Positions 2 to 63,880 of a DNA stretch of 64,000 bases are shown here, piece after piece. Each line of letters opens with the position of its first letter. Within the stretch, counting starts at the first letter, position 1. A program made the translations under genes and the position numbers. Below the pieces are notes generated by a model. The model was not told where the DNA came from, did no database searches, and saw nothing but the letters and a program-made list of their open reading frames with translations. Source of the stretch: Hymenobacter artigasi (GTDB taxonomy: Bacteria; Bacteroidota; Bacteroidia; Cytophagales; Hymenobacteraceae); contig NZ_JAAVTK010000001.1 of assembly GCF_012275535.1 (NCBI RefSeq), positions 372,001-436,000 of the forward strand, in the 5' to 3' direction.

Positions 2-2011
<2,010 letters not shown>

Positions 2012-2048
2012 CAGCCCCGGCCCGGCCAATGGCCGCAGCCCGACGGTA

Positions 2049-2216
2049 ATGCCCGTAACCTTTGGCGCCATGATTTCCCCTTTGCCCAGCCTGTACTTTG
2101 AGCACAATGCGGGCGAGGTGCTGACGGCCCCCGCCGGCGTTCTGCGCACATATCGCTCTTTTGATGATGAAGCGGCGGCCGTGCGCGGGCCGGCAGCGGC
2201 TCAATCGAACACGTAG
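2049..2216 (+). pseudogene. Short relic resembling the N-terminus of a STAS-like protein
   Basis: A 55-codon open frame starting MPVTFGAMISPLPSLYFEHN runs into the 3' end of the bestrophin gene on the other strand. The phrase SLYFEHNAGEVLTAPAGVL has the look of the first strands of small STAS-like proteins common in Hymenobacter-type genomes, two of which lie nearby at 3646-4507. The match is only to the start of such a protein and the frame then stops, so it is best read as a truncated remnant. It could also be chance coding. Confidence 0.3.
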
Positions 2217-5847: not shown

Positions 5848-6019
5848 CCGGGGGCAAAGGCGGCTGGGGAAGCTTGTCATGCTGAGCGCAGCGAAGCATC
5901 CTCTCACCGCTGAACGAATCGTTGTAACGTGAGAGGATGCTTCACTGCGTTCAGCATGACACACGCCCCCACCCCCACCCCCGCCGCCCCCGGCGCGAAG
6001 CGGCTGAACGATGCGTCAG
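5848..6019. repeat. Composite repeat: GTCAT-type hairpin plus GCCGC module
   Basis: Hairpin core 5876-5960 has arms of about 35 bases opening GTCATGCTGAGCGCAGCGAA and closing with the complementary ATGAC end; the loop contains GAACGAATCG. It is followed at 5983-6019 by a second palindromic module (GCCGC, CCCCGGCGC, GAAGCGGC) that ends CTGAACGATGCGTCAG, a sequence repeated exactly at about 9602. A degenerate copy of the module precedes the hairpin at 5850-5866. Confidence 0.85.
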
Positions 6020-8721: not shown

Positions 8722-9252
8722 CTACAGAAAGTCGCTTAGCGGCACCCCGCAATCCGGAAAGGCGCTGCTGAACGGGTAATGGTGGGCCTCATCCACCAAC
8801 CGGCTTTGCACGGGGTTCTGGTGGATGTAGTCCTGTTTTTGGCGCATCCAGGCCGTTGACTTCAGGTCGATGGGGTGGTTGCCGTCCTGCCAGAGCTTGA
8901 ACGCCTGGCCGTGGGGCCGGCCATAAAATTGCAGCAAGCGCAACAGCCAGTCGCGGCGGCTTTCCTGCGGGTGAGTTTCGATAAGCTCGTAAATCCGTTT
9001 GGCGGTGAAGCTCTTCAAATCGCGCAGCACATGGGCCAGCAGCAGGCCATCGGCTACATCGGCAATGAGGTGAACGTGGCTGGGCATGATGCAGAAGGCA
9101 TACACCCGCAACCCTTTGTGCCGGATGCAATACCGCAGGCTATCCAGAAACACGTCCGCGTAGTCGGGCCGGGTAAACACGTCAATCCAACCCACCACCG
9201 TCAGCGTCACAAAGAACAGCCCACCCTCATACGTTTTGTATTTCTCTGACAT
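8722..9252 (-). CDS. REP-associated tyrosine transposase (RAYT, Y1_Tnp)
   Basis: A 176-residue HUH-superfamily single-strand endonuclease. The metal-binding HUH motif is visible in AFCIMPSHVHLIADV, and the catalytic tyrosine helix in KQDYIHQNPVQSRLV, where the family consensus is YIHxNPV. Known RAYTs bind and nick palindromic REP sequences and are thought to spread them while staying single copy. The start at 9252 gives the usual MSEKYKTYEGGLFFVTLTVV opening; an upstream start inside the repeat is rejected. The gene is bracketed by two copies of a 138-151-base palindromic repeat, the arrangement called a REPtron. Confidence 0.92.
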   Translation of the reverse strand: MSEKYKTYEGGLFFVTLTVVGWIDVFTRPDYADVFLDSLRYCIRHKGLRVYAFCIMPSHVHLIADVADGLLLAHVLRDLKSFTAKRIYELIETHPQESRRDWLLRLLQFYGRPHGQAFKLWQDGNHPIDLKSTAWMRQKQDYIHQNPVQSRLVDEAHHYPFSSAFPDCGVPLSDFL

Positions 9253-9442: not shown

Positions 9443-9617
9443 AGCGCAACAGCGGCTGAACGATACCTGTCATGCTGAGCGCAGCGAAGCATCTTCTCTC
9501 TGAAGAACGACTCGTTGCAACGTGAGAGGATGCTTCGCAAGCTCAGCATGACAGCCCCGCCCCCCCAACCCCACCCCCCGCTGCCCCGGCGCGAAGGCGG
9601 CTGAACGATGCGTCAGG
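9443..9617. repeat. Composite repeat: GCCGC half-module, GTCAT hairpin, GCCGC module
   Basis: A half-module ending GCGGCTGAACGATACCT at 9452-9468 runs straight into a GTCAT hairpin (9469-9552, loop GAACGACTCGTT), then C-rich spacer and a full module at 9578-9617 ending CTGAACGATGCGTCAG. The array touches the 3' end of the DUF5615 toxin gene. Confidence 0.85.
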
Positions 9618-10283: not shown

Positions 10284-10590
10284 AGCCGCGCCCGGGGCGA
10301 AGCGGCTAAGGACGCCTGTCATGCTGAGCCGGCGAAGCATCCTCTCGCCGCAGAACGAATCGTGGCACCGTGAAAGGATGCTTCGCCGGCTCAGCATGAC
10401 AGCCCCAACACCACCCCAGCCGCCCCAGGCGCGAAGCGGCTGAACGAAACCTGTCATGCTGAGCGCAGCGAAGTATCCTCTCGCCGCAGAACGACTCGTT
10501 GTAACGTGATAGGATGCTTCGCTGCGCTCAGCATGACAAGCCCGCTCCCACCGGCCCCCACCCCCGCCGCCCCCGGCGCGCCAGCGGCTG
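10284..10590. repeat. Alternating array of GCCGC modules and GTCAT hairpins
   Basis: Order: module (10284-10307), hairpin (10318-10400, arms with GAGCCGGCGAAGC), module (10418-10450 ending CTGAACGAAACCT), hairpin (10453-10537, arms with GAGCGCAGCGAAG), module (10566-10590). The two hairpins share the loop core CGCCGCAGAACGA but have different matched arm sequences. The whole separates the antitoxin start from the AlbA_2 gene end. Confidence 0.88.
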
Positions 10591-12619: not shown

Positions 12620-15001
12620 TTACGACCCACACGCCTCGCAGGCGTCCGGGTTATCCAGGGAGCAACTCATGTCGCTTTGGTTTTGCTCCACTAGGGCCAT
12701 GGGCTCCAGGGTTTCGGCGGCTTGCTTTTCCACCGTGAACTTGATGGCGTCGGCGGCGGCTTTGGTGCGCAGGTAGTACATGCCGGTTTTCAGGCCGCGC
12801 TTCCAGCTGTGGAAGTGCATGCTGGTGAGCTTGCCGAAGTTCACGTTTTGCACGTGCAGGTTCAGGCTCTGGCTCTGGCAGATGTAGGCCCCGCGGTCGG
12901 CGGCCTGGTCGATGATGCGGCGCTGCGAAATCTCCCACACCGTCTTGTACAGGTCCTTGATGTGCTGCGGAATGCGGGCAATGCCCTGCACCGAGCCGTT
13001 GGCCGCGATGATTTCCTGCTTCATCGCGTCGTTCCACAGGCCCAGGGCCACCAGGTCCTTCAGCAGGTGCTTGTTCACCACCATAAACTCGCCGCTGAGC
13101 ACGCGGCGCACGTAAATGTTGCTCGTGTAGGGCTCAAACGACTCGTTGTTGCCCAGAATCTGGGCGGTGCTGGCCGTGGGCATGGGCGCCACCAGCAGCG
13201 AGTTGCGGGCCCCGTGCTTCACCACCTCGGCGCGCAGGCTTTCCCAGTCCCAGCGGCCCGAGTCGGGCGTCACGTTCCAGAGGTCGAACTGGAACTTGCC
13301 CTGGCTCAGGGGCGAGCCGGGGAAGGTTTCGTAGTGCCCGTCTTTGATGGCGAGGTCCTTCGAGGCCGTCATGGCCGCGAAGTAGATGGTTTCGAAAATG
13401 TCCTTGTTCAGGCCGCAGGCCTCGTCGCTCTCGAAGGGCATGCGCAGGGCAATAAACGTGTCGGCCAGGCCCTGCACGCCCAGCCCGATGGGCCGGTGGC
13501 GGAAGTTCGACTTCTGCGTTTCGGGCACCGGGTAGTAGTTCACGTCAATCACCTTGTTCAGGTTCAGCGTGGCCTGGTAGGTCACCTCGTACAGCTTGTC
13601 GTGGTCGAAGGTGGTGTTGCCCTTGGCGTCCGTCACGAGGTAGCGGGGCAGTGCCAGCGAGGCCAGGTTGCACACCGCGATTTCGTCCTTGTCGGTGTAC
13701 TCAATAATCTCGGTGCACAGGTTCGAGCTCTTAATCGTGCCCAGGTTTTGCTGGTTCGATTTGCCGTTGGCCGCGTCCTTAAACAGCATGTAGGGCGTAC
13801 CCGTCTCCGTCTGGCTTTCCAGAATGGCAAACCACAATTCCTGCGCCTTGATGGTCTTGCGGCCCCGGCCTTCGCGCTCGTACTTCAGGTACAGCTTCTC
13901 GAACTCCGGGCCCCAGGCCGTGTCCATGCCCGGGCACTCGTGGGGGCACATCAGCGTCCAGTCGCCGTTTTCCTCCACGCGCTTCATGAACAAGTCGGGC
14001 GTCCAGAGGGCGTAAAACAAGTCGCGGGCGCGCATTTCCTCCTTGCCGTGGTTCTTTTTCAGGTCCAGGAATTCGAAAATATCGGCGTGCCAGGGCTCCA
14101 GGTAGATGGCGAACGCACCCTTGCGCTTCCCGCCGCCCTGGTCCACGTAGCGGGCCGTGTCGTTGAACACCTTCAGCATGGGCACCAGCCCGTTCGAGTT
14201 GCCGTTCGTGCCTTTGATGTAGGAGCCCGTGGCCCGCACATTGCTCACCGACAGCCCGATGCCGCCGGCCGACTGCGAAATCAGCGCGCAGTTCTTCAGC
14301 GTGTCATAAATGCCATCGATGGAGTCGTCCTTCATCGTCAGCAGGAAGCAGCTCGACATCTGCGGCTTCGGCGTGCCCGCGTTGAACAGCGTGGGCGTAG
14401 CGTGGGTAAACCACCGCTCGCTCAGCAGGTTGTAGGTTTTGATAACCGAGTCGATATCATCCTTGTGGATGCCCACCGACACGCGCATCAGCATGTGCTG
14501 GGGCCGCTCCACCACCTTGCCCTCCAGGCGCAGCAGGTACGAGCGCTCCAGCGTCTTGAAGCCGAAGAAGTCGTAGTTGTAGTCCCGGTCATAAATAATA
14601 GCCGAGTCCAGGGTGTGGGCATTCTTATGAATCACCTCCCACACATCGGTGGCGAGCAGCGAAGCGTTGTCGCCGTTCTTGGGGTCTTCGTAGGTGTACA
14701 GCCGCTTCATGGTTGAAGAGAAGGACTTCGACGTCACCTTGTGCAGGTTGCTCACCGCAATGCGGGCCGCCAGAATGGCGTAGTCCGGGTGCTTGGTGGT
14801 GAGCGAGGCGGCCGTTTCGGCGGCCAGGTTGTCGAGCTCCACGGTGGTCACGCCGTCGTAGATGCCGTCAATCACCTTCATGGCCACCGCAATAGGCGAC
14901 ACGAAATCCATGTTCAGCCCGTAGCAGAGCTTCTCAATGCGGGCGGTTACCTTGTCGAACTTGACGGATTCGCGGCGGCCGTCGCGTTTAATTACTAGCA
15001 T
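12620..15001 (-). CDS. nrdA: Ribonucleoside-diphosphate reductase, alpha subunit
   Basis: A 793-residue class Ia large subunit that reduces NDPs to dNDPs with the NrdB radical. The N-terminal ~90 residues form an ATP-cone ([20 protein letters not shown]), so dATP feedback is expected. Catalytic features include SSCFLL near residue 215, NLCTEI near 427 (N-x-C-x-E radical site) and [17 protein letters not shown]. The extreme C-terminus DACEACGS carries the CxxC pair that is re-reduced by thioredoxin or glutaredoxin. The start at 15001 ([12 protein letters not shown]) is where the ATP-cone begins; the 45 upstream residues lack homology-like character. It is downstream of nrdB on the same strand, but 1 kb of repeats and a GIY-YIG gene intervene. 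Confidence 0.95.
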
Positions 15002-15256: not shown

Positions 15257-15435
15257 GTCATGCTGACGAAGGAAGCATCCTCTCCGCTGAACCAATGCCT
15301 CCCTGTCATGCTGACGAAGGAAGCATCCTCTCCCCGACGAACGGTTCGTTGGGGCGTGATAGGATGCTTCGCAGGCTCAGCATGACAGGAACCGGTCGTT
15401 CAGCGGGGAGAGGATGCTTCCTTCGTCAGCATGAC
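15257..15435. repeat. Nested pair of GTCAT hairpins (left of GIY-YIG gene)
   Basis: An outer left arm at 15257-15292 (GTCATGCTGACGAAGGAAGC and CGCTGAAC) pairs with an outer right arm at 15398-15435. Between them sits a complete hairpin at 15305-15386, with its own loop ACGAACGGTTCGTT. The arrangement is what insertion of one element into the loop of another would give. It ends 14 bases before the GIY-YIG stop codon. Confidence 0.85.
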
Positions 15436-15449
15436 AGGGAGGCACGCCA

Positions 15450-15734
15450 TCAATAGGACGTCAGAATCTCCCGTTCTGGGTTAACTGATTCAATCAGCGC
15501 ATCTTTCTTCGCCCTCGTCCAGCCCTTCAGTTCTTTCTCCCGCGCAATGGCGTAAGCAATATCCCCAAACTGGTCAGCATACAGCAAGTGGTAGCAGAAG
15601 TAGCGGCCGGCAAAGGTCTTAGCATCTCCCCGGTTGTCGTAGTGCTGCGCCAGCCGGCAGTTTAGGCTACCCGTCACCCCGATGTACAGCACAGTTTTAG
15701 CCGGATTGGTCGTGATGCAAACGAAGTAAGCCAT
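15450..15734 (-). CDS. GIY-YIG domain endonuclease bracketed by hairpin repeats
   Basis: A 94-residue single-domain GIY-YIG protein of the small excision-nuclease-like group. MAYFVCITTNPAKTVLYIGV carries the two strands that hold the GIY and YIG motifs, NCRLAQHYDNRG holds the conserved arginine helix, and AREKELKGWTRAKKDALIES contains the metal-binding glutamate helix (E-K-E-L-K-x-W) typical of this subfamily. It has no additional DNA-binding domain. The gene is on the same strand as, and between, nrdB and nrdA. Arms of the GTCAT hairpin family lie 14 bases from its stop and 8 bases from its start, so gene and repeats look like one unit. The biological role of these small proteins is not known. 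Confidence 0.85.
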   Translation of the reverse strand: MAYFVCITTNPAKTVLYIGVTGSLNCRLAQHYDNRGDAKTFAGRYFCYHLLYADQFGDIAYAIAREKELKGWTRAKKDALIESVNPEREILTSY

Positions 15735-15742
15735 ACCTGTCT

Positions 15743-15963
15743 GTCATGTTGAGCGCAGCGAAACATCCTATCCCCGCCCCCTGTCATGCTGACGAAGGAA
15801 GCATCCTCTCACCGGTGAACATTCTCACCTGTCATGCTGAGCTTGCGAAGCATCCTCTCACGCCCCAACGAATCGTGCGGCGGTGAGAGGATGCTTCGCA
15901 GGCTCAGCATGACAGGAATTGGTCGTGCGGCGGTGAGAGGATGCTTCGCAGGCTCAGCATGAC
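15743..15963. repeat. Cluster of GTCAT hairpin arms (right of GIY-YIG gene)
   Basis: Three left-type arms (15743, 15783 and 15831) are followed by two right-type arms ending at 15913 and 15963. The complete hairpin is 15831-15913 (loop CCCCAACGAATCGTGCGG). The last ~43 bases are a direct duplication of the preceding right arm (15872-15914 and 15922-15964). The left-most arm has a variant (GTCATGTTGAGCGC, then AACATCC). Confidence 0.85.
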
Positions 15964-15993: not shown

Positions 15994-16953
15994 CTAGAAG
16001 TCTTCGTCGAGCGAAAACACGTTGTCGTTGCGCTCGCTCATCACGCCAGCCTTCTGGTACTCGGCTACGCGCTTCTCGAAGAAGTTGGTTTTGCCCTGCA
16101 CCGAAATCATTTCCATGAAGTCGAAGGGATTCGTAGCGTTGTAAATCTTGGCGCAGCCGAGGGACACCAGCAGGCGGTCGGCCACAAACTCGATGTACTG
16201 GGCCATCGTCTTGGCGTTCATGCCAATCAGGCTTACGGGCAGCGCGTCGGTCACGAACTCCTGCTCGATGCGCACGGCGTCGGCGATGATGCTTTGCACC
16301 CGCGCCTCGGGCAGCTTGTTTTGCAGGTAGCTGTAGAGCAGGCAGGCGAAATCGCAGTGCAGCCCCTCATCGCGCGAAATCAGCTCGTTCGAGAACGTGA
16401 GGCCGGGCATCAGGCCGCGCTTCTTCAGCCAGAAAATGGAGCAGAACGAGCCCGAGAAGAAGATGCCCTCCACAGCCGCAAAGGCGATAAGGCGCTCGGC
16501 AAAGTTTTCGGAATTAATCCACTTTAGCGCCCACTCGCCTTTTTTCTGCACGGCAGGCACGGTTTCGAGGGCGTTGAAGAGGTAGTCTTTCTCCTTGGGG
16601 TCTTTGATGTAGGTGTCAATCAGCAGCGAATAGGTCTCGCTGTGAATATTTTCCATCATAATCTGGAAGCCGTAGAAGCAGCGCGCCTCGGGCATCTGCA
16701 CCTCCTGCATGAAGTTCACGGCCAAGTTCTCATTCACAATGCCATCGGAGGCCGCGAAGAAGGCCAGCACGTGCTTGATGAAGTGGCGCTCGTTGTCGTT
16801 CAGGTTGTTCCAGTCTTTCTGGTCCTGGCTCAGGTCGATTTCTTCGGCCGTCCAGAAAGAAGCCTGCGACTTCTTATAATACTGCCACACCTCATCGTTC
16901 TGGATGGGGAAAAGCACGAAGCGGTTGGGGTTTTCGGCGAGGAGCGGCTCCAT
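15994..16953 (-). CDS. nrdB: Ribonucleoside-diphosphate reductase, beta subunit
   Basis: A 319-residue ferritin-like radical subunit. Iron ligands are visible in order: [29 protein letters not shown] with ENIHSE (E-x-x-H), and [14 protein letters not shown] then [13 protein letters not shown] (E-x-x-H). The radical-bearing tyrosine is expected in the ARCFYGFQ region. It forms the class Ia holoenzyme with NrdA (12620-15001). The end FSLDEDF is the usual acidic tail that binds the large subunit. It precedes nrdA in transcription order. A -7 element TATATTTG lies about 110 bases upstream and a DnaA-box pair about 280 bases upstream. Confidence 0.95.
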
Positions 16954-18267: not shown

Positions 18268-18373
18268 AAAGAGCACGTCATGCAGAGCGGAGCGAAGCAT
18301 CTTTACTGCAACGGTAAATCTGATTACTTGCGCGGTAAAGATGCTTCGCCCCGCTCTGCATGACGTGCTCTTT
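18268..18373. repeat. GTCAT-type hairpin, CATCTTTAC subtype
   Basis: Arms of 39 bases with one mismatch: the left begins AAAGAGCACGTCATGCAGAG and ends CGAAGCATCTTTAC; the right is its complement. The loop has AACGGTAAATCTGATTACTT. It ends 10 bases before the stop of the adjacent minus-strand gene. Confidence 0.88.
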
Positions 18374-30265: not shown

Positions 30266-30373
30266 GACCGTCATGCCGAGCGCAGCTGAGGCATCTCGCG
30301 TGTGGCAGTAACTCAATCGGTTGGATTACTACCACCCGCAAGATGCCTCGGCTGCGCTCGGCATGACGTCCTC
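30266..30373. repeat. GTCAT-type hairpin, GCATCTCGC subtype
   Basis: Arms open AGGACCGTCATGCCGAGCGC and close GCGCTCGGCATGACGTCCT. The loop reads CAGTAACTCAATCGGTTGGA. The AGATGCCTCGGCTG subtype arms also occur at 43.9 and 45.4 kb. Confidence 0.85.
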
Positions 30374-31090: not shown

Positions 31091-31198
31091 GGCTGTCATC
31101 CTGAACGCAGTGAAGGACCTTATCACGCTCGGACGAGTCGTTTATACGACAATCGTTCAAGCGTGATAAGGTCCTTCACTGCGTTCAGGATGACAGCC
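31091..31198. repeat. GTCAT-type hairpin, CCTTATCAC subtype
   Basis: Arms of about 39 bases: GGCTGTCATCCTGAACGCAG and TGAAGGACCTTATCACGCT against the matching complement at 31160-31198. The loop includes ACGAGTCGTTTATACGACAA, itself a small palindrome, then CGTTCAA. Confidence 0.88.
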
Positions 31199-43921: not shown

Positions 43922-44035
43922 ACCGTCATGCCGAGCGCAGCCGGGGCATCTCGCGTGCCACTACTAATCAATGCTGTTATCACGATTAAGATACTATGGC
44001 ACGCGAGATGCCTCGGCTGCGCTCGGCATGACGGT
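43922..44035. repeat. GTCAT-type hairpin, GCATCTCGCG subtype
   Basis: Arms begin TACCGTCATGCCGAGCGCAG and end GCTCGGCATGACGG. The loop includes ACTACTAATCAATGCTGTTA. It ends about 15 bases before the thrC stop. Confidence 0.85.
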
Positions 44036-44049
44036 CTTCATTGAAACCC

Positions 44050-45345
44050 TTACATCAGGTAGGCTTTCAACTCTTCGTAGTTAACCGCCAGCGGCACACT
44101 TCGTTTAGCCCGCCCCTGCAAGGCCTGCACCACGGCCGGCAGCTCAATGGCCCGGCCCAGGATGGGCTCCACCACGTCGGGGAACTTCACGGGGTGCGCC
44201 GTGGCCAGAATCAGGCCCGCTGTGCCCGCGTGTTGGGCCTGATAGCGGCGCAGTGCCGTGTAGGCCACGGCCCCGTGCGGGTCGAGCAGATAATCGTCGT
44301 GCTCCCACACCTGCCGGATGGCGGCCACCGTATCGGCGTCGCTCACGGTATCGGCACCGAGGGCGGCGCGCAGCTTATTCAGGTCATTATCAAATAGCTC
44401 CAGAATGCGCACAAAGTTGCTGGGGTTGCCCACGTCCATGGCGTTGGAGAAGGTGGGCACGGCCGGCCGGGGCTCGTAGGTACCCGTGCGCAGGTAGGCG
44501 GGCACCGGCTCGTTGGCGTTGCAGGCCGCGATGAAATGCCCCAATCCCAGCCCCGAGGCCTGGGCCAGCAGCCCCGCGCACAGGTTGCCGAAGTTGCCGC
44601 TCGGCACCGCCACCACCGGCGCGGGTGCCCCCGCCGGCCACTGCTGCATGGCAAAGCAGTAGTACAGCTGCTGCGGCAGCCACCGCGCCACGTTGATGGA
44701 GTTAGCCGACGTGAGGAAGCGCCGCTGGGCCAGTTCGGGGTCCAGAAAAGCTTGTTTCACCAGTGCCTGGCAGTCGTCGAAAGTGCCGCTCACTTCCAGC
44801 GCCGTAATGTTCTGGCCCAGGGTGGTGAGCTGCTGCTCCTGCACGGGGCTCACCTTGCCTTTGGGGTAGAGTATCACCACTTCCACGCCCGGCACGCCCA
44901 GAAAGCCGCTGGCCACGGCCCCGCCGGTATCGCCGGAGGTGGCCACCAGTACGGTCACGGGCGGCGTGTCGCCGTGCTGGGCGAAGTAGCCCAGGCAGCG
45001 GCTCATAAACCGCGCCCCCACGTCCTTAAACGCTAAAGTAGGCCCATGAAACAGCTCCAGCGCCGACACGCCCGCCACCACCGGCACCAGCGGAAACTCA
45101 AAGTCCACCGCCTCGGCGCAGATGCGCTGCAAGTCGGCCTCGGCAATGGTGCTGCCCACGTAAGGCCGCATCACATTGAATGCCACGGTGGCCTTGCTCA
45201 GGCTACGCAATTCGCGCCGGAAATCCGCAGAGAATTTCGGGATGCTTTCGGGGAAATAAAGGCCGCCATCCGGAGCCTGCCCGGTGATGGTGGCCGTGCG
45301 GAAATCAACCAGCGGCGACTGGTGGCGGAGGCTGTAGTATTTCAT
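44050..45345 (-). CDS. thrC: Threonine synthase
   Basis: A 431-residue PLP enzyme converting O-phosphohomoserine to threonine. It starts MKYYSLRHQSPLVDFRTATI; the PLP lysine is in GPTLAFKDVGARFMSRCLGY; ATSGDTGGAVASGFLG and SANSINVARWLPQQLYY are diagnostic of the ThrC type with N-terminal extension. It is the last gene of the thr operon. A GTCAT hairpin separates it from thrB. Confidence 0.95.
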   Translation of the reverse strand: MKYYSLRHQSPLVDFRTATITGQAPDGGLYFPESIPKFSADFRRELRSLSKATVAFNVMRPYVGSTIAEADLQRICAEAVDFEFPLVPVVAGVSALELFHGPTLAFKDVGARFMSRCLGYFAQHGDTPPVTVLVATSGDTGGAVASGFLGVPGVEVVILYPKGKVSPVQEQQLTTLGQNITALEVSGTFDDCQALVKQAFLDPELAQRRFLTSANSINVARWLPQQLYYCFAMQQWPAGAPAPVVAVPSGNFGNLCAGLLAQASGLGLGHFIAACNANEPVPAYLRTGTYEPRPAVPTFSNAMDVGNPSNFVRILELFDNDLNKLRAALGADTVSDADTVAAIRQVWEHDDYLLDPHGAVAYTALRRYQAQHAGTAGLILATAHPVKFPDVVEPILGRAIELPAVVQALQGRAKRSVPLAVNYEELKAYLM

Positions 45346-45375: not shown

Positions 45376-45473
45376 ACGTCATGCCGAGCGCAGCCGAGGC
45401 ATCTCGCTCGCATCGTTGCGGCGATTAGATTACTGCGGCACGCGAGATGCCTCGGCTACGCTCGGCATGACGT
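45376..45473. repeat. GTCAT-type hairpin between thrB and thrC
   Basis: Arms AACGTCATGCCGAGCGCAGC/CGAGGCATCTCG and the complement GATGCCTCGGCTACGCTCGG, ending ATGACGT. The loop contains TCGTTGCGGCGATTAGATTA. Confidence 0.88.
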
Positions 45474-62474: not shown

Positions 62475-63788
62475 TCAGGCCGGCAGCAGCGCGCCGGCCA
62501 GCAGCGCCACGGCAATGATGACCACGCTGGGCACCTTTTCCCAAAGCAGCAGCAGGAACGTGGCCCCCACCAGCAGCGGGTTCAGGGGCAGCGAATCGAT
62601 GGGGCCGAGGTGAAACGGCAGCTCCAGCAGGCGGTCGGGCAGCGGGTGGTAGAGCAGGAAGGTGGCCGCGCACACCAGCCCCGCGCTCACGGCGTTGATG
62701 CCCTCCAGCGACGCCTGCACCACCCGGTACTGCCGCAGCCGGTCCCAGAAGCGAATCACGAAGAAGATGAGAAACGTGCCCGGCAGGAAGATACCCGCCG
62801 CGCCCACCAGCGCCCCCAGCACCTGCATGCCAGGGCCGCCCACCGGCCGCATGGCCAGCGCCCCGATATAGGCCGCGATAGAAAAATTAGGCCCCGGCAT
62901 GGCCTGCACCAGCCCCAGGCCCGACAAAAACTCCGTGCTCGTGAGGTAATGCTTGAACTCCACGAACTCGGCATACAGCAACGGGGCCAGCACCTGCCCG
63001 CCCCCGAACACCAGCGAGCCGTTGCGGTAGAAATTCTCGAACAGCCGCACCGGCAGCAGCTGCGTGTAGTGCCCCAGCACGGCTGCCCCCACCAGAATGC
63101 CAAACCACAGCACAAAATTGGCCCATTCCACGCGCAGCGGCTTTTTCTCCTGAATGATGGCATGCTTGCGGTAGCGCACCGTGGTTACGGCCCCGCCGGC
63201 CAGCAGCAGCAGCGGCAGCATCCAAGGCAGCTGGAAAAAGTAGGCCATCATGGCGGCAGCCACCATCAGCCCCACGGCCGTTTTGGTATGAATGACCTTC
63301 TCCGCAATCTTGTACGCCGAGAACGCCACAAAGCCCACCGCCACCGGCTGCACAAACTGCACTAGTGCCGCCACCCGGGCCGGGTCGAGGTGGCTCAGGG
63401 CGAGGGCGGCCAGCGTCATCAGCGTCACGGACGGGGCCATCCAGACCAGCAGCGTGAGGTAGGCCAGGTTGGGCCCGCCCAGCCGAAAACCGATAACGGT
63501 AATAGTTTGGGTGGACGTGGGCCCCGGCAGCAGCGCGCACAACGCCTGCAATTCCAGCAGCTCAGGCGTGCTGATGTAGCGCCGCTTATCCACCAGCAGC
63601 CGGAAAAACATGGCCAGATGCGCCTGTGGTCCGCCAAAGGCCGTGAGGGCCAGCACGGCCACATCCTTCAGAAAAATAATGCCCCGCACCCGCCGCGTGC
63701 GCTTGCCCGAGCGCCGCGGGGGCGGCGTGAGGGAAACAGCAGCGGCGGGGTGCGGGGCAGGGCTATTGGTTGGGGGCAATGGTGTCAT
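62475..63788 (-). CDS. Two-domain chromate transporter (CHR family)
   Basis: A 437-residue membrane protein with two homologous CHR halves, each opening with a GGxxAH-like or equivalent element (LALTAFGGPQAHLAMFFRLL and NGSLVFGGGQVLAPLLYAEF) and a PGPTSTQ/PGPNFSI loop. Family members export chromate or move sulfate-like anions. It probably confers chromate tolerance, but the direction of transport is inferred from family. The ATG falls inside the terminal GTCAT of a hairpin repeat; a GTG at residue 34 is an alternative start nearer to the conserved sequence. Confidence 0.85.
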   Translation of the reverse strand: MTPLPPTNSPAPHPAAAVSLTPPPRRSGKRTRRVRGIIFLKDVAVLALTAFGGPQAHLAMFFRLLVDKRRYISTPELLELQALCALLPGPTSTQTITVIGFRLGGPNLAYLTLLVWMAPSVTLMTLAALALSHLDPARVAALVQFVQPVAVGFVAFSAYKIAEKVIHTKTAVGLMVAAAMMAYFFQLPWMLPLLLLAGGAVTTVRYRKHAIIQEKKPLRVEWANFVLWFGILVGAAVLGHYTQLLPVRLFENFYRNGSLVFGGGQVLAPLLYAEFVEFKHYLTSTEFLSGLGLVQAMPGPNFSIAAYIGALAMRPVGGPGMQVLGALVGAAGIFLPGTFLIFFVIRFWDRLRQYRVVQASLEGINAVSAGLVCAATFLLYHPLPDRLLELPFHLGPIDSLPLNPLLVGATFLLLLWEKVPSVVIIAVALLAGALLPA

Positions 63789-63880
63789 GCAGAGCGCAGC
63801 GAAGCATCTTTACCTCATTAGTAAACCAATTGATTGGATTGCATTGTGCGGTAAAGATGCTTCGCTGCGCTCTGCATGAC
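63784..63880. repeat. GTCAT-type hairpin, CATCTTTAC subtype
   Basis: Arms open GTCATGCAGAGCGCAGCGAA and end GCATCTTTAC, the same subtype as the copy at 18.3 kb. The loop includes CATTAGTAAACCAATTGATT. It overlaps the start of the chromate transporter gene. Confidence 0.88.

Follow-up and report, generated by a model that had tools for sequence, protein, structure and literature searches.

REP-type palindromic repeats tagged with CGTC have been described as carrying a 5′ unpaired CGTC, TGTC or CCTC tag, a stem of 8–9 bp starting from AT, a loop of 4–5 nucleotides and a tail near CCA; they were reported to lack a dedicated transposase, with no mechanism of spread established (Di Nocera, De Gregorio and Rocco 2013, PMC3733652). 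The window analyzed here, a 64,000-nucleotide stretch of the genome of Hymenobacter artigasi, contains nine GTCAT-tagged units arranged in two clusters around a small GIY-YIG gene, within positions 15257–15963 (Table 1). An initial sequence-only reading had placed a 94-residue GIY-YIG gene between nrdB and nrdA with repeat arms 8 bases from its start and 14 bases from its stop. Both claims held, the first by Pfam matches on the gene and its two neighbors, the second by the tag that starts at 15743 and the unit that ends at 15435.

The window protein is a member of the GIY-YIG nuclease superfamily by domain and by active-site residues; nuclease activity itself is inferred. It has Y17, G19, R27, H31, E66 and N85, which include what we take to be the catalytic Tyr, Arg, His, Glu and Asn with roles assigned from I-TevI, and it has K76 at a position that separates hairpin types. 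In an alignment of 52 sequences G19, R27, H31 and N85 are invariant and Y17 and E66 nearly invariant. The predicted fold is confident (pLDDT 94.5), and its best solved match in a structure search is the UPF0213 protein 1zg2 (E 1.2e-3), followed by SLX1, UvrC and I-TevI, all with E > 0.1. In a sequence search the solved UPF0213 members 1zg2 and 1ywl match best. No curated NCBIfam model reaches the window protein, PADLOC returned only marginal matches (E 0.018 and 0.043), and 41 of the 52 family members match a group I intron endonuclease model, weakly.

The sequence-only reading had also noted about ten other sites in the window that carry the repeats without the gene. This count held at ten, and the assignment of all of them to the same repeat family required correction, as several classes are present: four pairs of the window-gene class, three of the class of paralogue L002, two of the class of paralogue L003 and one of the CCT..GGACC class. 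Allowing up to one mismatch, the window contains 19 copies of CTGTCATGCTGA, compared with 0.23 expected and a maximum of 2 over 100 shuffles. The term hairpins used in that reading needs care, since strong folding belongs to inverted pairs (four in the window, −31 to −52 kcal/mol, z −7.9 to −14.3), whereas single GA-type units fold weakly (five units, −2.3 to −3.3 kcal/mol, z between −1.6 and 0.4). The stretch 15257–15330, which is not an inverted pair, gives −10.4 kcal/mol with z −1.8. Across the host genome one hairpin pattern occurs 165 times on the plus strand and 168 times on the minus strand, and its reversed pattern 0 times. A Y1 gene with GC-rich palindromes of its own also lies in the window, some 6 kb away from the GIY-YIG gene, which places two REP systems side by side.

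Table 1. Genes and repeat features of the window, with positions counted from its first nucleotide.
Feature	Position	Strand	Remarks
Head-to-head pair	5876..5960	.	Window-gene class
Y1_Tnp (RAYT-like) gene	8722..9252	-	Pfam
Head-to-head pair	9469..9552	.	Window-gene class
Head-to-head pair	10318..10400	.	Window-gene class
Head-to-head pair	10451..10537	.	Window-gene class, one varied arm
nrdA, ribonucleotide reductase large chain	12620..15001	-	Pfam
GTCAT unit, downstream cluster	15257..15279	+	GCT class
GTCAT unit, downstream cluster	15305..15327	+	Inside inverted arms 15296-15343 / 15397-15444 (48 nt, 96% complementary)
GTCAT unit, downstream cluster	15363..15386	-	
GTCAT unit	15413..15435	-	End 14 nt from stop codon
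Small GIY-YIG nuclease gene, 94 aa	15450..15734	-	Pfam GIY-YIG (PF01541), E 5.8e-9; nuclease activity inferred
GTCAT unit	15743..15767	+	GTT variant; start 8 nt from start codon
GTCAT unit, upstream cluster	15783..15805	+	
GTCAT unit, upstream cluster	15831..15854	+	Inside inverted arms 15828-15871 / 15873-15916 (44 nt, 89%); pair -46.6 kcal/mol, z -14.3
GTCAT unit, upstream cluster	15890..15913	-	
GTCAT unit, upstream cluster	15940..15963	-	Outer end of cluster
nrdB, ribonucleotide reductase small chain	15994..16953	-	Pfam
Head-to-head pair	18277..18364	.	GCA..TTTACC class (that of paralogue L003)
Head-to-head pair	30270..30367	.	GCC..TCGCG class (that of paralogue L002)
Head-to-head pair	31095..31194	.	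CCT..GGACC class
Head-to-head pair	43925..44032	.	GCC..TCGCG class; missing or of other class at this place in relatives
Head-to-head pair	45378..45471	.	GCC..TCGCG class; likewise variable in relatives
Head-to-head pair	63784..63880	.	GCA..TTTACC class (that of paralogue L003)

The host genome has six GIY-YIG matches, which are UvrC, a long DEDD-exonuclease/UvrC-like protein and four small genes. All four small genes are wrapped in GTCAT hairpins, in four variants, and one of these genes is broken by a stop. No hairpin was detected in the 3.2 kb loci of UvrC and the DEDD-exonuclease/UvrC-like protein of this genome, and E. coli yhbQ has no adjacent hairpin, the single detector match in 6 kb lying about 1.7 kb away. 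The host genome contains 169 CCT..GGACC hairpins, yet this class adjoins none of its four small GIY-YIG genes.

A profile built from three of the small GIY-YIG proteins of this genome (E 1e-8) gave 104 protein matches in 53 of 61 Hymenobacter genomes, corresponding to 103 loci, with one to four matches per gene-bearing genome. With a strict detector, 85 of the 103 loci have hairpins nearby, and 69 have them on both sides. Among the 18 loci that it missed 12 were inspected, and all 12 have variants that differ in the first stem pair or the tag. A relaxed detector found hairpins near all 103, on both sides in 88; this detector was set after inspection, its first version reaching 90/103 before it was widened for the GCA class, and the complete count is descriptive. 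At L258 (G034) and in several other genus rows, GIY-YIG copies with internal stops are still flanked by hairpins, indicating that the partner gene decays. The L001 element contains a second small ORF (1793–2119, minus strand, 109 aa) without a Pfam match, which is present in 4 of the 103 loci.

The hairpins are not confined to the vicinity of these genes. One hairpin pattern is present in all 61 genomes at 26–1003 copies (reversed pattern, 0–2), and because this compares with one to four gene matches per genome, the great majority of pairs are without the gene. Eight of the 61 genomes have no gene match and yet contain 52–329 hairpins, counted with four patterns. The absence of the gene rests on searches at E 1e-8 and at E 1e-3, the latter lacking a positive control within these eight genomes, of which one is 82% complete. 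Hairpins are fewer in the eight gene-less genomes (median 219 vs 300, p 0.026), which is compatible with their being relics and does not prove it.

Hairpin class follows the protein clade. Stem class requires 17 changes on the tree of the 103 genus proteins, compared with at least 50 in global shuffles and a minimum of 37 (mean 47.8; 0/2000) in shuffles within genomes, and tail class requires 29 compared with at least 47. More than one stem class is present in 27 of the 33 genomes that have several small GIY-YIG genes. Since flanks are syntenic in 237 of 503 pairs of genus loci, inheritance of whole loci explains part of this co-segregation, and a second test was therefore made with genome-wide counts of four hairpin patterns. 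Each pattern is more abundant where the matching clade occurs: TGC (median 56 in 12 genomes with the clade vs 2 in 49 without, p 2.8e-5), TCC (44 in 8 vs 6 in 53, p 6.7e-4), CCT (41 in 24 vs 12 in 37, p 0.0031) and GNN (209 in 39 vs 130 in 22, p 0.03). One of the 12 non-matching combinations falls below p 0.05 (TCC clade with CCT hairpins, p 0.017). The tests are uncorrected for phylogeny or for their number, and the counts take in the hairpins beside the genes. Clade labels are from the protein tree, with the CCT clade taken whole (27 rows including window-like genes).

The association extends well beyond the genus. In the host phylum 126 of 247 genomes have a protein match, and hairpins lie at most 500 nt from the gene in 24 of 27 fetched loci, on both sides in 20. 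Among 32 plasmid records with a relative, the 14 loci fetched all have tagged palindromes within about 500 nt as judged by eye, the tag being GTCAT in 10 and a variant in 4 and the stem varying with taxon. An Azospirillum plasmid has a small GIY-YIG gene and its hairpins between sufB and sufC, and the flanks of a small GIY-YIG locus in Shinella resemble, by eye, the same junction; these two loci are L087 (2989–3282) and L091 (3001–3342).

The broadest set comprises the best 80 loci, selected by protein, from a scan of genome contigs that gave at least 589 stretches, at least 581 of them encoding relatives, and spans at least 29 phyla with six loci lacking a phylum assignment. The query alignment was itself made from loci found by protein, several of which were already known to bear hairpins, and L146 also belongs to the genus set. 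Because the best 80 lie close to the query, the broad claim covers a query-near subfamily and not every small GIY-YIG protein. In DNA at most 500 nt from the gene, compared with DNA more than 2 kb away, GTCAT ranks first of 512 5-mers (531 seen, 162.5 expected) and TGTCAT first of 2080 6-mers (387 seen, 49.4 expected). A hairpin lies at most 300 nt from the gene in 72 of the 80 loci, on both sides in 59, compared with 69 of 396 control ORFs in the same loci. Hairpin density is 5.27 per kb near the gene and 0.20 per kb beyond 2 kb. A paired arm accompanies 276 of 540 near GTCAT tags and a reversed arm 9 of 540; the corresponding numbers for far tags are 130 and 34 of 1339. Orientation beside the gene tends inward (left side, 80 plus and 41 minus; right side, 85 minus and 47 plus). 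Eight loci were missed by the strict detector, and of these six have variants by eye, one is ambiguous and one is truncated by a contig end.

The suggestion first made for the window, that small GIY-YIG proteins could be the partner of GTCAT hairpins, is thus supported as an association in the genus, the phylum and at least 29 phyla and by class-by-class matching. The further suggestion that the enzyme spreads or processes the hairpins is supported in its associative part only, and spreading, processing and mere inhabiting remain undistinguished. Abundant hairpins in the absence of the gene family had been named as a refuting observation, and this is partly met by the eight gene-less Hymenobacter genomes.

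Two hairpin forms occur beside these genes, and one of them is the published CGTC form. In the 94 loci made up of the broad set and the 14 plasmid loci, the detector used found the long form only in 30, the GA form only in 50, both in 1 and neither in 13, so that 31 loci carry long-stem hairpins of the form published for CGTC-REPs. The 83 long hairpins have a C/TGTC tag, a stem of 8 bp (67) or 9 bp (16) that is AT-initial in all 83, a loop of 4 or 5 in 78 and a CCA tail in 57. The window units have TGTC before AT and meet the tag criterion of CGTC REPs, and the repeats of the window and of its genome, present in many copies and mostly as head-to-head dimers, meet the criterion of copy number and arrangement. 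Their stem of 5 bp followed by GA steps and tails such as CATCC or CATCT do not meet the criterion for stem, loop and tail. The window repeats are related to the CGTC REP superfamily and are not members of it. Hairpin form changes three times on the cross-phylum protein tree, compared with a minimum of 16 and a mean of 24.6 in shuffles. W occupies position 74 (L081 numbering) in 29 of the 30 long-stem loci and in 1 of 52 others (Fisher 7e-20), a value that overstates the evidence because the forms cluster on the tree. Twelve of the 94 loci were set aside as unlabelled for this test, and its 52 others differ slightly from the 51 loci labelled GA.

Among 30 fetched nrdB junctions (59 genomes have nrdB; best matches were taken first, the window included) the GIY-YIG gene is present in 7. 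All nine gene-bearing junctions, two of which were added because they bear the gene, have hairpins, and a repeat pair is present in 1 of the 23 without the gene. No clean empty site was found at nrdB–nrdA. Neither an insertion boundary nor a target duplication can be read at nrdB–nrdA because close relatives have unrelated DNA there. At the spaces flanking the window gene at 44050–45345, nine genomes inspected of 34 with a match differ in hairpin class or have none. In L306, L308 and L309 the spaces orthologous to these are filled by GGAACGCGCC palindromes and CTCTCC..GGAGAG repeats. Repeat pairs are variable at fixed places, and the mechanism of this variability is not thereby shown.

A flush target duplication is found at 2 of 86 repeat pairs compared with a background of 4 of 86, and the classical criterion for an IS or MITE is not met. 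A complementary run of at least 6 beyond the tags occurs in 11 of the 86 pairs (background 2). On the left side of repeat pairs such as that at 18277–18364 A tends to prevail, and on the right side T, as if the pairs lay within terminators. In a filtered test the DNA shared by non-syntenic copies ends at the repeat on the downstream side in 92 of 233 cases (chance 9%); on the upstream side it does so in 5 of 46 (chance 6%), and a boundary there is unsupported.

These data demonstrate that gene and hairpin are associated and co-segregate class by class, that cognate copy numbers correlate with the matching clade, that pairs vary at orthologous positions and that active-site residues are conserved. 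A partnership between small GIY-YIG proteins and GTCAT hairpins is well supported. The explanation that we favor, with moderate confidence, is that gene and repeats form a two-part replicator of the REP/partner type, in which the GIY-YIG nuclease is the dedicated partner and probably the mobilizer; binding, cleavage and copying driven by cleavage are inferred. In this view each nuclease clade would pair with its own hairpin, defined by an unpaired GTC tag and an AT-initial stem with a body that is either a full stem of 8–9 bp or a stem of 5 bp followed by GA steps. Acting on its own repeat in extruded or single-stranded form, the nuclease would introduce a nick at the tag or close by, as may be proposed for a superfamily in which the relative SLX1 is structure-selective. 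Host replication or repair may then copy the repeat pair to a new intergenic site, sometimes with the gene in between. Covalent strand-transfer intermediates are not known from GIY-YIG enzymes, and for this reason the copying would rest on host enzymes. Against the mobilizer reading stand the gene-less genomes with hairpins, the lack of target duplication and of a clean empty site, the unsupported upstream boundary, the weak folding of single units and the absence of observed cleavage, binding or movement.

On a bolder reading the evidence does not lean clearly to either side. It holds that, in at least 29 phyla, stand-alone GIY-YIG nucleases mobilize the entire CGTC/GTCAT REP superfamily through structure-specific cleavage and host copying without a transposase, and that the enzymes diversified together with their hairpins, K/R or W at position 76 of the window protein marking the form.

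The main rival is a homing parasite, in which the nuclease cuts REP pairs that already exist and a copy of its gene enters the break, becoming flanked by the halves of the pair, while the repeats spread by other means. In its favor, the hairpins next to the gene show a tendency to point inward, homing endonucleases also use the GIY-YIG fold, with the weak intron endonuclease matches noted above (41/52), and class matching and cognate correlation would equally be expected of a gene that survives only where targets abound. Insertion of the gene into its own recognition site, as in a homing endonuclease, has the inward tendency in its favor and the lack of a clean empty site against it. Against the rival as a whole, no other spreader was found, Y1/RAYT genes being flanked at 2 of 30 loci (other transposase families lay outside the comparison), and pairs without the gene far outnumber genes. 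We regard this rival as unlikely.

A second alternative, likewise unlikely, is a domesticated host nuclease that resolves cruciforms or trims repeat transcripts and lies near repeats by chance or for regulation. Weak structural matches do include SLX1, a branched-DNA nuclease, the tendency of repeat pairs to A on one side and T on the other is terminator-like, and E. coli YhbQ bears the annotation DNA damage response nuclease. However, a housekeeping enzyme needs no adjacency to its substrate, yet most of the genes here adjoin hairpins. In addition, no copy was detected in 8 of 61 genomes, several rows have stops, and several divergent clades occur per genome.

It is very unlikely that RAYT/IS200-type transposases move the repeats with the GIY-YIG gene as a passenger. 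Y1_Tnp matches are present in 43 of the 61 genus genomes, and the window Y1 gene, which was outside the fetched sample, has a GTCAT pair that starts about 145–220 nt away. However, GTCAT hairpins lie near 2 of 30 Y1 loci fetched one per genome from the 43 genomes, one of these being a probable chance hit, compared with the 85 (strict) or 103 (relaxed) of 103 GIY-YIG loci. GTCAT hairpins are also present in the 18 genomes that lack a Y1 match, and the window Y1 gene is bordered more closely by GC-rich palindromes of its own. Chance or site preference, by which small mobile genes land in repeat-rich intergenic DNA, draws on the hairpins being common and intergenic and on the 69 of 396 control ORFs that have one near, and is all but excluded by the 72 of 80 loci and by class matching within genomes (0/2000 shuffles).

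If the favored two-part replicator is correct, it would constitute a second, independently evolved REP-partner system beside RAYT/REP. The recurrent pairing of gene and hairpin across phyla points to a missing partner of a large bacterial repeat family. With a cognate enzyme of unrelated fold beside CGTC-type repeats in many phyla, the question of their spread becomes directly testable with small proteins and short oligonucleotides. The open-access literature searched contained no paper connecting GIY-YIG proteins with REP repeats, and one in print elsewhere is not excluded.

Small GIY-YIG proteins of the UPF0213/YhbQ type share size, fold and active-site residues with the window protein and differ in that E. 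coli yhbQ lacks an adjoining hairpin. GIY-YIG homing endonucleases of the I-TevI type share the catalytic fold, as a weak match; unlike them, the window gene has no visible intron and no separate DNA-binding domain in its 94 residues, and the DNA associated with it is a multi-copy hairpin. CGTC-tagged REPs (PMC3733652) have the same tag, stem, loop and tail as the hairpins of the 31 long-form loci, but were described without a dedicated transposase, whereas here they adjoin GIY-YIG genes; the window repeats differ in belonging to a second form, in which the stem is 5 bp long, GA steps follow and the tail is another one. With RAYT/REP (REPtron, REPIN) this system shares many short tagged palindromes, mostly in inverted pairs, a low-copy partner gene flanked by them, and the presence in one genome of several partner clades that each have a repeat class of their own. 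The tag here is GTC before AT and not the GTAG of RAYT/REP. The partner is a GIY-YIG protein (PF01541) unrelated to the HUH tyrosine transposase (PF01797), so that membership is not met, and, unlike RAYT, the GIY-YIG fold is not known to have strand-transfer chemistry. The parallel to RAYT/REP with an unrelated enzyme fold, which the sequence-only reading had drawn, therefore holds as an analogy, in the flanked gene and in the clade-specific repeat classes.
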